Position numbers and translations under genes: made by a program | The notes under the pieces: generated by a model | What the model saw: the letters and a program-made list of their open reading frames with translations, nothing else | What the model was told of the DNA's origin: nothing | Database searches by the model: none | Part shown: in pieces, positions 14,502-26,369 of the stretch | How the letters are laid out: each line of letters begins with the position of its first letter | Position numbering within the stretch: position 1 is the first letter of the stretch | Virus record (IMG/VR): IMGVR_UViG_3300025122_000126 | Location: 1-26,486 of that record | Source of the DNA: a virus | Direction: 5' to 3' (one strand) | Length of the DNA stretch: 26,486 nt

Positions 14502-15518
14502 ATGGATTATGAAAATATAAAATTCACCCACGTGTTGGGTGCAAGTGAAATACCTAAACATATTAAAGATTGTCTTGAAGAACAACCTGCACGGAGCGGG
14601 ATGTATAACTGGATATTTGTGTTTAAGGGAGAGATTAATACTTATAGGTCTATTACAGGTAAGTTACATGATTATGATATAATTCAATGTAACATGTCTC
14701 CTGTTGATATGCCAATGATTCTACAAATTAGGGATGAACTGACAAGGACAGGGAACACTAAAACTAAACTTGTTATTAATAACGATTATGTTACTGAATG
14801 TTGGGGTAAGTGGGGCATTGACCCATTTTACTATGACCACGTTCAGAGGCAAGGTGACATGGTATTTGGTACAGAATCTCACCAAGTATCGAACATGATA
14901 CCCGGAACGTTTACTATTCCTCATCCAACTAACACTAAGATGTTAAAGAGGTTAGGTTCTGACGTTGAATCTGATTCTATTGGGTTCATATTTCATTGGT
15001 GGGCAGGAGAAACTTACTTACCTCACAGAACTTTGGAACGTGTTAAGAGAAAGTATGGTGTTAAGAAGTCCAAGATTTATGCTTACAAGCCTAATAAAGA
15101 TGAAATGACTCATGGTCAGAAATTAATGTGGGACGATAAAATTGGTATGTTAGATTTCCCAGACTTTGCAGAGTACATTCAAGGGGAACGTTGTGTTTAT
15201 GACCCTAACCCTTGCCATACTTATGGGAGGAATGGGGTTGAACTTGCTTGTTGGAAAAGACCAGTTGTAGGCAGTGATAGGGTATTCAGTTACAAAATGT
15301 TATTCCCAGAACTATGTTGTGACCCTTACAATTTCAATGCAACCATGGACTGTTTTGACATTGTGTTTAACCAACCAGACAAGTTAAAAGAGATTATGGA
15401 TAGGGCTTATGAAAAAGTTGAATATTTTAATTATGCAAATAGTAAGAAAAGGTTCATTGACGCTTTGAAAGTATGTGAAGGAAGGGGGTGGAACAGTTGG
15501 TATTTAAAACAGTTTTAA
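14502..15518 (+). CDS. Glycosyltransferase (GT-B-like)
   Basis: The 338-residue enzyme has the two-domain layout of GT-B glycosyltransferases. The N-domain includes KLVINNDYVTECW. IPHPTNTK near residue 139 marks the domain crossover, and a C-domain segment RNGVELACWKRPVVGSD near 246-259 holds the E-x7-like motif that binds the sugar nucleotide. GGAGGATGATAAG precedes the start. It probably transfers a sugar to a protein or host glycan. It overlaps the downstream methyltransferase by 31 bases. The sugar and target are unknown; a virion glycan or host surface is inferred. Confidence 0.75.
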   Translation: MDYENIKFTHVLGASEIPKHIKDCLEEQPARSGMYNWIFVFKGEINTYRSITGKLHDYDIIQCNMSPVDMPMILQIRDELTRTGNTKTKLVINNDYVTECWGKWGIDPFYYDHVQRQGDMVFGTESHQVSNMIPGTFTIPHPTNTKMLKRLGSDVESDSIGFIFHWWAGETYLPHRTLERVKRKYGVKKSKIYAYKPNKDEMTHGQKLMWDDKIGMLDFPDFAEYIQGERCVYDPNPCHTYGRNGVELACWKRPVVGSDRVFSYKMLFPELCCDPYNFNATMDCFDIVFNQPDKLKEIMDRAYEKVEYFNYANSKKRFIDALKVCEGRGWNSWYLKQF

Positions 15519-16084
15519 ATGAAAAGTACCCTTGGCCAACTGAATGCCCAGATGTCCAGTTAGATGGACATGGTTGGTTCAGAGAACAGAACGCTAAGAA
15601 ACTTGACGAGTTCATTAAATCTGACCACATAGTTATTGAACTTGGTTCTTGGCTAGGTAAATCTACTAGATTCATGGCTGAACGGTGTAAACAAGTTATA
15701 GCTATTGACCATTGGAAAGGTGGACCAGAACATGTAGTATCCACCTACGCGTCCATTAAATGCCGTTTACCTATCCTCTACGAAACGTTCATTAAGAACT
15801 GTTGGGAGTACAAGGATAAAATAATACCTATCAGAGAAACTACTCTGGTTGGGTTAACAGAATGTTCTCAAGCTGGTATTAAACCAGACATCATTTACAT
15901 TGACGCTTCTCACGAATATAAAGATGTGTTAGCAGATATTGAATTGTCTAGGAAACTATTTCCTGACGCTTTAATTATTGGAGATGATTGGGAAAGGCGA
16001 GGAGTTCATTCTGCTGTGATAAATCACGTTTATGATAAAGAACTTGTCCTGTCTGTATATGGTTGTGTGTGGTGGTTGAAATGA
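15488..16084 (+). CDS. Class I methyltransferase (Methyltransf_24-like)
   Basis: The SAM-binding motif ELGSWLGKSTRF lies near residues 51-62. An AIDHWKGGPEH segment follows, and DIIYIDASHEYKDVLADIELS near 134-153 is characteristic of the Methyltransf_24 family, whose members often methylate sugars. The gene overlaps the glycosyltransferase and is followed by a second methyltransferase by ATGA overlap. The start is GTG at 15488, with GAAGG close upstream. A TTG at 15497 after GGGGGTG is an equally good choice. It may act on the sugar transferred by the neighbour. Confidence 0.8.
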   Translation: MEQLVFKTVLNEKYPWPTECPDVQLDGHGWFREQNAKKLDEFIKSDHIVIELGSWLGKSTRFMAERCKQVIAIDHWKGGPEHVVSTYASIKCRLPILYETFIKNCWEYKDKIIPIRETTLVGLTECSQAGIKPDIIYIDASHEYKDVLADIELSRKLFPDALIIGDDWERRGVHSAVINHVYDKELVLSVYGCVWWLK

Positions 16085-16713
16085 GAAGTAAAGAAGAGCT
16101 GAATGAGTTAGTTAAGAAATGGTCTGCACAAGAGTGGGCAGTTGAACAAGATAAAGGATTCATGCAGGTTGAGAGAGTATATACTTTTGATGATATGTTA
16201 AAAGCTAACCCTTACAGGTTTAGTTGGGTTAAGAAGAAAGCCAAGGGAGTAGGGACAGCATTAGATTTAGGTTGTTCAAATGGGATTATGACTCATCATT
16301 TGTTAGATATTGGCTATGAAGTGGTTGGATTAGATGTTGGTGAAGCTATCATAGCTGCTGCTAAAGAGAATGTACCCGCAGCTAAATTTGTTTTGGCTAA
16401 GGCAGACGAACCATTACCTTTTGTAGATGAGACATTTGATTGTGTAACTTGTTTAGAAGTAATAGAACATGTTAGAGACTTAGAACAATTCATGAAAGAA
16501 GCTATACGAGTATGTAAAAGGGGTGGCCAAATGTTTTTCACTACGCCAGTGGATCAACATTATGACTGTGACCAACACTTGCGGTACTTTAAGTTTTATG
16601 ATTTAGAGGAGTTGTTTGATAAACTTCCTGTTAAAGAGTTTAAGATTTGTAGGATACATAAAAATGTAACCTATGAAGGTAGAAATTTGTTTGGAATTGA
16701 GGTGACAAGATGA
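16081..16713 (+). CDS. Class I SAM-dependent methyltransferase (UbiE/COQ5-like)
   Basis: Start chosen at ATG 16081, overlapping the upstream stop as ATGA. An in-frame upstream extension is possible. It has the SAM motif I ALDLGCSNG (60-68), then a VVGLDVGEAII stretch, then LEVIEHV (125-131) before the post-motif region and MFFTTP. This fits small-molecule, lipid or sugar methyltransferases of the Methyltransf_11/UbiE type. The 210-residue length is normal. It is coupled to both neighbours in the cassette. Confidence 0.85.
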   Translation: MRSKEELNELVKKWSAQEWAVEQDKGFMQVERVYTFDDMLKANPYRFSWVKKKAKGVGTALDLGCSNGIMTHHLLDIGYEVVGLDVGEAIIAAAKENVPAAKFVLAKADEPLPFVDETFDCVTCLEVIEHVRDLEQFMKEAIRVCKRGGQMFFTTPVDQHYDCDQHLRYFKFYDLEELFDKLPVKEFKICRIHKNVTYEGRNLFGIEVTR

Positions 16714-23507: not shown

Positions 23508-24266
23508 ATGGCATACCCCAATTACTCGGTAACAAATGATTTTACAAACGGAACTACTGCAGAAGCAGGAGAAGTTAATGCAAACTTTGCAGATATAGAA
23601 AATTCAATAAATGGTGCAAGTGCAGTAGGCGTTCCAGTTGCTTATGGTATTGCTCCAATAGGTGGGATTATTGCATGGGCAAAGACTTTAAGAGAAGTAA
23701 GCTCAACAGGAGGACAAACAAACACCACACAATCAGCAACACAGCTTATTGATTCAGCAGCTGACTTTGTTTCAGACGGAATAACTGCAGGAATGATAGT
23801 TCATAACGAAGATGATAACGAGTTTGCTATTATTGAGACAGTAGTGGATTTGAATACATTAACATTAGTAAGCGATTTAAATGCAGGGACTGCTGATGTG
23901 GACACTTTCAATGGAGCAACAGGAGTAAACTATGCAATTTATGCTACTCCAGAACTTCCAGATAACTGGTTAGAATGTAATGGTCAGTCTGTTAGTGATG
24001 CTGATAGTCCATTTAATGGGACTACTTTACCTAATATGAATGGAACAAGTGATACAACAAAAGCATTTATTCGAGGTGTAATAGGTTCTACCGATTTAAC
24101 AGTAACGGATTCAACTCACACTCACAGTGTAGTAGTTGCTTCAGAAAGCAAAACTTGTGGTTCCGGTAGTCCAGGGAATGTTGGACGAGACGATACCTAC
24201 TACACAGGTTCGTCAAGGGCTATACCCCCATATGCTGAGATGGTATGGATTATAAGGGTTAAATGA
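23508..24266 (+). CDS. Tail collar-domain fibre protein 1
   Basis: The N-terminus (DFTNGTTAEAGEVNANFADI) is a phage fibre attachment motif. A beta insert of about 80 residues precedes a collar-type C-terminus: WLECNGQSVSDADSPFNG from residue 154, then FIRGV, an HTHS segment and a final PPYAEMVWIIRVK strand. This matches the phage tail collar family, in which 'WLlCdG', 'P.l.g.fiRG' and 'lPPy...ifiIk' are conserved. GGAGGATAAAAA precedes the start. The collar end is related to the protein at 25578. Confidence 0.75.
   Translation: MAYPNYSVTNDFTNGTTAEAGEVNANFADIENSINGASAVGVPVAYGIAPIGGIIAWAKTLREVSSTGGQTNTTQSATQLIDSAADFVSDGITAGMIVHNEDDNEFAIIETVVDLNTLTLVSDLNAGTADVDTFNGATGVNYAIYATPELPDNWLECNGQSVSDADSPFNGTTLPNMNGTSDTTKAFIRGVIGSTDLTVTDSTHTHSVVVASESKTCGSGSPGNVGRDDTYYTGSSRAIPPYAEMVWIIRVK
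23992..24020 (+). repeat. Collar-domain DNA repeat, copy 1
   Basis: This segment matches 26083-26111 at 25 of 29 bases. It encodes VSDADSPFNG in the first collar gene. Together the copies bracket the radical SAM gene and could allow recombination between the two collar genes. Confidence 0.6.
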
Positions 24267-24276
24267 GGTAATAAAA

Positions 24277-24345
24277 ATGGAAGAAAAAGAAGAAAAAAAA
24301 CAAGAAGAAATTGAACAAGATGAATGTAAAGACAGTTGTTGTTAA
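24277..24345 (+). CDS. 22-residue Cys-tailed peptide overlapping radical SAM gene
   Basis: A short ORF starts at the ATG at 24277 with GAGGTAATAAAA (GAGGT at 24265-24269) well placed upstream. The peptide is MEEKEEKKQEEIEQDE followed by CKDSCC: an acidic leader-like stretch with three cysteines at its end. Its last 26 bases overlap the radical SAM gene in another frame. It could be a substrate peptide, a partner of the enzyme, or only a leader ORF that brings ribosomes to a downstream gene lacking its own ribosome-binding site. The last option is the simplest. Confidence 0.4.
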   Translation: MEEKEEKKQEEIEQDECKDSCC

Positions 24346-25576
24346 AGATTCCTTTATTAAACAAGAAGGAAGAAAAGGAGTGATTGCCACAAATGTAAGA
24401 TGTAGTGGCAACTGTACTTTTTGTTATGAGAAACTATTTTCTCAATTATTTCCAAAATCAAAAACAGTTACTATTCCAAAATATGATAAGGAAAGTTTTG
24501 AAGAATATAACAATGGTTTTAGAGAGTTTATCCAAAAATCAACAGATGACTTTCCAAAAATCTCTACGTTGCCTACAAGTAAGAAAAAAGGGATAGTTGA
24601 ATATTATCCAAATTGTGACTTTTTTAGTTTAGGATTGTCATTAGAACAAATTGAACAAGTAGTTAAAAACATAATAAAAACTACGGAATTTAATGGTAAA
24701 AAAATATTTGACTTTTACACTAATGGATATAACCTTTCAATAAAAACCCTGAATCATTTAAAAGATAAATATTCGGGGATGTTTGGGATACATCTGTCAG
24801 CTATTACTTTTAACAAAGAATATAGAAGAAAAATGTTAATAGGCAGAGAAGATTCAACTAATATTAAAGCATTAGTTAAAGAACTGCCACTAAATTCGAC
24901 AATATATTTTCTTTTCTTAGATTTTGAAACTGCAAAAAAAGATTTAGATTTGGTAGTTGACATGGCAAGAAAAAATAACATTAACATTTGGTTTAGTAAA
25001 ATGTTTTATAACCGTATCAATGGAGGATTTGTAAGAAAAGTATCTAACGATTCAGAACCGGAATTTAAAAAATTTATATTTTACTTAAAGGACAATACTA
25101 AATATAAAGATGTTTATAATAAAATTCTTTTTAGTCCACACTCAAAGATGTTTGCAAGTGCTAAGAAAAAGCAACTATTGGATTTACTAGGGTTAATCAA
25201 TTCTAATGAAGAACATTCAGCAGTTTTTTGTTCAAATGGTGCCTATGATATAATTAATAGGAAGTTTAGAAACACAGATATAACTGTTGTAAGAATAGAT
25301 AGTGCGTTTGGAGGTACTGTTGATTTTTCTCTAGGAATTACATTTAAAACTATTTTATTAAAATTAGAGGAGTTCAGAAATAATGGTACAGGATTTAATA
25401 AAATATACATTCCAAGTACTATGTTGTGGGTTGATGGGATGTATGATGCTAATGGAGATGGAATAGATTTAATTGAAAATGAAGGAATTAGTGTTGAAGT
25501 TATACCTATTCCTTATCAAATGAAAATGCAATTACTAAATATAGATGATTGTTATAAGTATTATGGGGTAAAATAA
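24320..25576 (+). CDS. Radical SAM enzyme with DUF512-like C-terminus
   Basis: From the ATG at 24320, VRCSGNCTFCYEK holds the CxxxCxxC iron-sulfur motif (C28, C32, C35). Barrel landmarks follow: FDFYTNGYNL, then GIHLSAITFNKEYRRKML, a pattern shared by radical SAM enzymes. The last 130 residues (VRIDSAFGGTVDFSLGIT, then KIYIPSTMLWVDGMYD) resemble DUF512. A TTG at 24311 is an alternative start. Neither has its own ribosome-binding site, so coupling to the 24277 ORF is likely. The gene looks more A-rich than its neighbours, suggesting acquisition. The substrate is unknown. Confidence 0.8.
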   Translation: MNVKTVVVKDSFIKQEGRKGVIATNVRCSGNCTFCYEKLFSQLFPKSKTVTIPKYDKESFEEYNNGFREFIQKSTDDFPKISTLPTSKKKGIVEYYPNCDFFSLGLSLEQIEQVVKNIIKTTEFNGKKIFDFYTNGYNLSIKTLNHLKDKYSGMFGIHLSAITFNKEYRRKMLIGREDSTNIKALVKELPLNSTIYFLFLDFETAKKDLDLVVDMARKNNINIWFSKMFYNRINGGFVRKVSNDSEPEFKKFIFYLKDNTKYKDVYNKILFSPHSKMFASAKKKQLLDLLGLINSNEEHSAVFCSNGAYDIINRKFRNTDITVVRIDSAFGGTVDFSLGITFKTILLKLEEFRNNGTGFNKIYIPSTMLWVDGMYDANGDGIDLIENEGISVEVIPIPYQMKMQLLNIDDCYKYYGVK

Positions 25577-25577
25577 A

Positions 25578-26369
25578 ATGGCAAATGAAGGAGAATTTCC
25601 AAAAGTCGATGGTGACGTCTTATTTGAAACAGATGTTCATTACGCTAGTGGGATTATAGACGCAGAGGCAGGAGAAACACTTGCAGCAGGAGATGTAGTA
25701 TTCATTTACATGAGTGGTCACGCTAACGAGGGAGAGGCTTGGTTATCTGACGCTAATGTTCAAGATAAGTGTAGGGTTACAGGTATTTGTTTAAGTGCAG
25801 GTAACGATGGTGATACAGTTAAGGTAATGACTAGAGGGGTCTATAAGACTACTGGTTTAACAGCTAAAGAGAGTTACTATCTTAGTGCAACTGCAGGAGA
25901 TTGGACAACTACCACTTCAGGAGTTAGGATTGGACACGCAGTAAGTACAACAGAAATATTTATTGATGTTGTTCAGGATGATAGAGATGTTGTTGGGACG
26001 ATTAAGCCTTGGCTACAAGACCATGCTAATATGATTGCTAATCCGTTAACGGCTTTTTGGAAGTTATGTGATGGGACAGCTATTAGTGATGCAGAAAGTC
26101 CATTGAACGGGGGGCAAGCTCCGGACTTAAATTCAACCTCAAGATTTATTCGTGGTGCAGGAACTTCTGATGATGGTACTGATGATACTGCGGCTGGTGC
26201 TGATACTCACACTCATAGTATGGGTACTGCTTCTGCTTGTGCTGATGCTGCTGATAAGAGTTCTGGTAGTGGTTTCTCTGCTGCTACTTGCAGTCACACT
26301 CACACTGTTAATGCGGGTAGTACCTTGCCTGCATACATCGCGGTTACGTTCCTCATGAAGATAAAATGA
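25578..26369 (+). CDS. Tail collar-domain fibre protein 2
   Basis: The N-terminal half has the 'aGe.laaGDVVf' pattern (ETLAAGDVVFIYMSG), then GLTAKESYYLSATAGD. This is a DUF2190-like domain related to the decoration protein at 6602. The C-terminal half is collar-like: FWKLCDGTAISDAESPLNG, RFIRGAG, and His/Thr-rich turns (THTHS, SHTHTV) ending LPAYIAVTFLMKIK. The His/Thr tip resembles metal-binding fibre tips. It begins right after the radical SAM stop. Six cysteines include ACADAAD and ATCSH positions near the tip. Confidence 0.7.
   Translation: MANEGEFPKVDGDVLFETDVHYASGIIDAEAGETLAAGDVVFIYMSGHANEGEAWLSDANVQDKCRVTGICLSAGNDGDTVKVMTRGVYKTTGLTAKESYYLSATAGDWTTTTSGVRIGHAVSTTEIFIDVVQDDRDVVGTIKPWLQDHANMIANPLTAFWKLCDGTAISDAESPLNGGQAPDLNSTSRFIRGAGTSDDGTDDTAAGADTHTHSMGTASACADAADKSSGSGFSAATCSHTHTVNAGSTLPAYIAVTFLMKIK
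26083..26111 (+). repeat. Collar-domain DNA repeat, copy 2
   Basis: Partner of 23992-24020, with four mismatches in 29 bases. It encodes ISDAESPLNG in the second collar gene, downstream of the radical SAM gene. Confidence 0.6.

Follow-up and report, generated by a model that had tools for sequence, protein, structure and literature searches.

A virus-borne radical SAM gene with a DUF512-like, probably cobalamin-binding C-terminal region at a putative exchange site of fibre genes

Wang et al. (PMC11659888) showed that the DUF512 domain of certain radical SAM enzymes binds cobalamin and that these enzymes make methyl-B12. In fold the domain is like that of Mmp10, a protein-arginine C-methylase whose target arginine lies in methyl-coenzyme M reductase (PMC8828468). 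A review places the DUF512 enzymes and Mmp10 together as class 2 of the B12-dependent radical SAM family (PMC13331322); Pfam does not put Mmp10 itself under DUF512 (PMC11659888). There are thousands of DUF512 enzymes, and a substrate is known for none of them except the related Mmp10 (PMC11659888).

The window analyzed here is a whole IMG/VR record, linear and 26,486 bases long, that is probably a fragment. From its content it appears to be the structural half of a tailed-virus genome known from metagenome sequence alone, with terminase (2318) and portal (3805) genes, then tail genes and finally a fibre cassette containing the gene for protein P0001. The features considered below are the following:

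23508..24266, + strand: upstream collar-type fibre gene (Collar E=0.002, below cut-off; relatives in L021 and L022)
24277..24345, + strand: 22-codon ORF MEEKEEKKQEEIEQDECKDSCC, in another frame and overlapping the enzyme start, with a good Shine-Dalgarno site
24293..24300, + strand: A8 run, from the sequence
24320..25576, + strand: radical SAM gene P0001, 418 aa (open frame; Radical_SAM match)
24320..25039, + strand: radical SAM domain, approximately residues 1–240 (Pfam match to residues 26–189; the far boundary is an estimate)
24401..24424, + strand: putative 4Fe-4S motif C28-SGN-C32-TF-C35, from the translation
25040..25573, + strand: DUF512-like (B12-binding type) C-terminal region, residues 241–418 (alignments to 9CG2, 9CG1 and 80 DUF512 proteins)
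25578..26369, + strand: downstream collar-type fibre gene, N-terminal module MANEGEFPK (tip related to that of the upstream one; relatives in L025–L028 and L135)

The P0001 frame runs for 418 codons with no internal stops, and the deduced product shows a CxxxCxxC cluster motif at residues 28–35, a plausible second-strand motif at 92–102, FYTNG at 132–136 and further strand-like segments. The Pfam Radical_SAM profile (PF04055) matched the whole protein with E=0.0012 and residues 1–224 with E=1.9e-4 (22.1 bits, profile positions 5–141 of 166), in both cases below the curated cut-off of 29.5 bits, and searches against NCBIfam, PHROGs and PDB sequences retrieved nothing of use. A SPASM extension was not apparent, there being neither a profile match nor a Cys cluster in the C-terminal region. 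From motif and profile, P0001 can be assigned with good confidence to the radical SAM proteins, and the preliminary description of an intact gene of this class between two tail-collar-type fibre genes is borne out by the uninterrupted frame, the cluster motif and the sub-threshold Radical_SAM match.

The same description attributed a DUF512-like end to the protein. The DUF512 profile (PF04459) of Pfam and NCBIfam did not match P0001 at E≤10, such that, of the two profiles, only Radical_SAM gave a match. Since Pfam made no DUF512 call, DUF512 proteins were gathered for direct comparison with the help of a bait consensus that Pfam recognizes as DUF512 at 5e-90; the set comprised 80 bacterial DUF512 proteins plus chain segments of the solved 9CG1 and 9CG2, that is, 82 domains. 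In this test, which was prompted by the earlier suggestion and is not the top result of an open search, residues 241–418 aligned to the cobalamin domain of 9CG2 with a score of 89 (z 7.8; shuffles 38±6.5, with 0 of 1,000 as high), whereas the best of 824 segments taken from real ORFs of viral loci scored 69 (Gumbel p 8e-5). The alignment with 9CG1 reached z 4.5 and the mean over the 82 domains was z 2.9, with a single register, FGG on FFG, in 53 of them; the controls gave 0.5 for the reversed sequence and 0.7 for the C-terminus of a SPASM enzyme. With a DUF512-domain HMM, P0001 obtained 8.3 bits and was outranked by one of 5,000 shuffles, and neither a 12-sequence DUF512 HMM nor hhalign with the single sequence produced a significant match. 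At the level of individual positions, the B12-tail Thr site of DUF512 falls on C304 or S305, at the site or one residue off, and the lower-axial Leu site on L338-G339, shifted by one residue. These targeted alignments favor the proposed DUF512-like end, on which the profile libraries are silent, and suggest that the C-terminal region is a remote homolog of the solved DUF512 domains; P0001 is thus probably DUF512-like and B12-dependent, although we do not claim membership as proven.

AlphaFold models of P0001 were built from the single sequence only and were poor, with a pLDDT of 41 for the full protein and 52 for the C-terminal region. The predicted C-terminal strands (residues 300–305, 321–326, 361–365 and 391–395) would fit a four-stranded Rossmann-type domain. 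In a fold search with the full model, chains of Mmp10 appeared at ranks 25, 26 and 34 (E around 0.01, TM-scores 0.23–0.26) and were the sole radical SAM proteins among the top 50 matches, while the C-terminal model retrieved PLP enzymes and receiver domains, but neither Mmp10 nor DUF512. No fold match was better than E 0.001 with either model.

Among the solved enzymes, pfDUF512 of Pyrococcus furiosus (9CG2) resembles P0001 in having a radical SAM domain followed by DUF512 without a PDZ domain, and in the aromatic residue that follows the third Cys, which corresponds to Y36 in P0001 and occurs in all three solved enzymes. However, it is an archaeal cellular gene product of 358 aa vs. 418, its B12-contact residues are only inexactly kept in P0001, and the radical SAM halves are alike in the motif only, their alignment being at chance level (z 0.9). 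Mmp10 (7QBS) shares with P0001 the domain order, the length (411 vs. 418 aa), the lack of PDZ and the aromatic residue; the predicted four-stranded C-terminal domain would also be common to both, whereas the fold match is weak and non-significant, a direct sequence comparison yielded no match at E≤10, and the Cys4 iron loop of Mmp10 is missing from P0001, which has no Cys in residues 36–98. Bacterial PDZ-radical SAM-DUF512 proteins (9CG1) have in common with P0001 the FFG and IPxxML register of the C-terminal domain, but P0001 lacks their PDZ domain and DDD motif, and the gene neighborhood differs.

The P0001 gene starts 53 nt past the end of the upstream collar-type gene (24266), ends 1 nt before the downstream one (25578–26369) and has no promoter or terminator of its own above chance level. 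Therefore, although it had been described as standing alone in the cassette, transcriptionally it does not, being so close to the next gene and overlapped by the 22-codon ORF, and it is probably read as part of the late structural operon. The upstream collar gene (23508–24266) has relatives that are 80% (L021) and 62% (L022) identical, and the tips of the two flanking collar-type proteins are related (4e-13). The downstream gene starts with a 20-residue N-terminal module, MANEGEFPKxDGD (25578–25640), which is common to fibre proteins with different bodies (L027 10001, L028 10001 and L135 3735–5853), suggesting module swapping of receptor-binding proteins and a swapping site; identities computed over nt 61–360 were discarded because of free end gaps. 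SAM methyltransferases are found among the tail genes at 15488 (Methyltransf_24) and 16063 (Methyltransf_11), next to a 14502 protein that has no Pfam match and that, in our reading, carries a glycosyltransferase-like motif. Homologs of this trio (14502–16713) occur in L134 and L135, and of the 14502 gene also in L137 and L138.

The A-richer composition noted beforehand was confirmed, the P0001 gene having a GC content of 27.3% vs. 38% for the rest of the contig; non-overlapping windows of the same length elsewhere had at least 34.7% (mean 38.1, sd 1.6). By codon position, the GC content of the gene is 0.35, 0.29 and 0.19. No P0001 homolog was found in any of 18 terminase relatives, and a radical SAM family search of 19 related records matched two, both with SPASM-type proteins at other sites. 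Many of these 19 records are fragments ending short of the fibre cassette, so that the informative relative is G006 (46.7 kb), which has the tail genes in the same order and a homolog of the 22095 gene with 85% identity, followed by a collar gene, a gene for a 179-aa protein and another collar gene, with no radical SAM gene. Its absence from this syntenic relative indicates that the P0001 gene is not a core part of the virion, and the best reading is that it was acquired from an AT-rich source at a place where genes for receptor-binding proteins are exchanged. The proposal that it is a moron consequently holds for an accessory gene within the fibre cassette, by its GC content, its absence in G006 and the modular fibre N-terminus, but not for a unit with its own promoter and terminator.

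SPASM genes of two relatives (L138 9206–10270 and L140 636–1703) are likewise radical SAM accessory genes that viruses of this group carry within their structural region, but they differ from P0001 in the SPASM C-terminus, the adjacent epimerase and the insertion site, and show no close kinship to it. Each lies in a segment (L138 9206–11754, L140 636–3224) with an NAD-dependent epimerase gene and a further, unassigned gene, so that the structural region has another site of insertion here.

Searches for homologs of P0001 were negative throughout. A tblastn search in phages revealed no close relative, plasmids (PLSDB) gave one non-significant match (E=0.1), and peptide-pattern scans of IMG/VR and GTDB found none, those of IMG/VR reaching close relatives only. 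From 299 genomes of one phylum we obtained two matches, both false (a flavodoxin-like protein and noise). The question of whether homologs occur only as host housekeeping genes was thus tested in part: none was found anywhere searched, cellular or viral. Matches from the IMG/VR motif scans were rejected as kin of P0001, since they belong to different radical SAM families of phages that resemble it in the motif only. A separate phage radical SAM family (CDGGCPFCYEGC and variants) is carried by IMG/VR contigs of around 80–150 kb (L115, L116, L118, L120, L124, L125 and L128–L130). Of the DUF512 matches in INPHARED, the two checked were also rejected as phage genes: annotated as ‘Bacteriophage sp.’ (L151, MT836862, and L152, MT835759), they are bacterial chromosome, with DUF512 genes adjoining der, plsY, gpsA or ruvAB. 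Hence, we found no true phage DUF512 gene among the INPHARED matches checked or, within their reach of close relatives, in the IMG/VR scans.

Taken together, these results make it reasonably probable that P0001 is a viral radical SAM enzyme that lacks a PDZ domain and ends in a cobalamin domain of the DUF512 type. It would most likely be a methylase, its gene having been acquired where fibre genes are exchanged. By analogy with Mmp10, a first SAM would methylate bound cob(I)alamin, and a second SAM would be cleaved at a [4Fe-4S] cluster with C28, C32 and C35 as ligands, yielding a 5′-deoxyadenosyl radical; this radical would abstract hydrogen from the substrate, a protein, peptide or sugar, at an unactivated carbon, to which the methyl group would then pass. 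B12 binding and radical methyl transfer by P0001 would follow from what is known of the family, and we infer that the gene is expressed.

As for the substrate, our leading guess is a co-made virion or fibre protein, or a glycan. Given the methyltransferases (15488 and 16063) and the glycosyltransferase-like 14502 protein among the tail genes, a glycan is as open as a protein. That P0001 acts on the virion fibres is a guess from its position, and it seems rather improbable that a B12-dependent radical SAM enzyme methylates carbons of the receptor-binding fibre or of another virion protein, altering its stability or host recognition. Collar genes also occur in relatives without the enzyme, and no precedent for the radical-based modification of a virion was found in the literature searched. 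The Cys/His-rich fibre tip that had been pointed out next to P0001 does contain an HxH pattern, although it gives no hint of the substrate because phage fibres ordinarily use this pattern as a metal site (PMC6116203).

A serious, if somewhat doubtful, alternative is that the enzyme is directed to the host, where it would act during infection on a cofactor, an RNA, a protein or a surface glycan, and that the cassette is merely an entry site for foreign genes. It agrees with the foreign, AT-rich composition, with the presence of collars but not of the enzyme in G006, with the SPASM radical SAM and epimerase genes at another site in other relatives, and with the methyltransferases among the tail genes; however, nothing points to any particular host target, and no relative of P0001 was found in cellular genomes (GTDB pattern scans and 299 genomes of one phylum). 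This alternative concerns the substrate only and does not exclude a B12-dependent mechanism.

It is unlikely, although it deserves consideration, that P0001 belongs to another radical SAM subgroup whose Rossmann-like C-terminus does not bind B12, its resemblance to DUF512 being due to convergence or chance. The silence of the DUF512 profiles, the inexact conservation of the B12-contact residues and the retrieval of PLP enzymes and receiver domains by the C-terminal model (pLDDT 52) would be expected in that case, but not targeted alignments far over both shuffles and real decoys, with a single register across many DUF512 proteins. Still more improbable is a recent capture of a gene that has no function in the virus: an orphan of foreign composition, missing from syntenic G006, could have such an origin, but the full-length open frame, the intact cluster motif, the gradient of GC content along codon positions and the tight packing against the next gene argue against it.

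Finally, the start of the gene allows for a small product. Most genes here have Shine-Dalgarno energies near −6 kcal/mol, whereas that of ATG 24320 is −1.5 and that of ATG 24277, which opens the 22-codon frame MEEKEEKKQEEIEQDECKDSCC, is −6.9 kcal/mol. We consider it very improbable that this ORF, with its strong ribosome site directly 5′ of the enzyme, encodes a precursor whose Cys-rich end is modified by P0001 as a peptide maturase, because its Cys codons are a shifted reading of Val-Val-Val in the first strand of the enzyme; moreover, an acidic-basic leader is expected free from A-rich DNA, MEEKEEKKQEEIEQDECKDSCC has no second copy among the loci compared, and the ribosome site is accounted for equally by a one-base loss or slippage in the A8 run, which would put ATG 24277 in frame with the enzyme.

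If the favored reading of P0001 as a DUF512-type radical SAM enzyme is true, it would rank as the first viral member of the DUF512/B12 class found in the libraries searched and, together with the SPASM enzymes of its relatives, would indicate that viruses of this group acquire radical SAM enzymes of different kinds within the structural operon. The virus may then methylate some protein or sugar while infecting. A viral DUF512-type enzyme, if expressed, has few neighbors and a short list of co-made proteins, and the substrate of the viral copy could therefore perhaps be easier to find.
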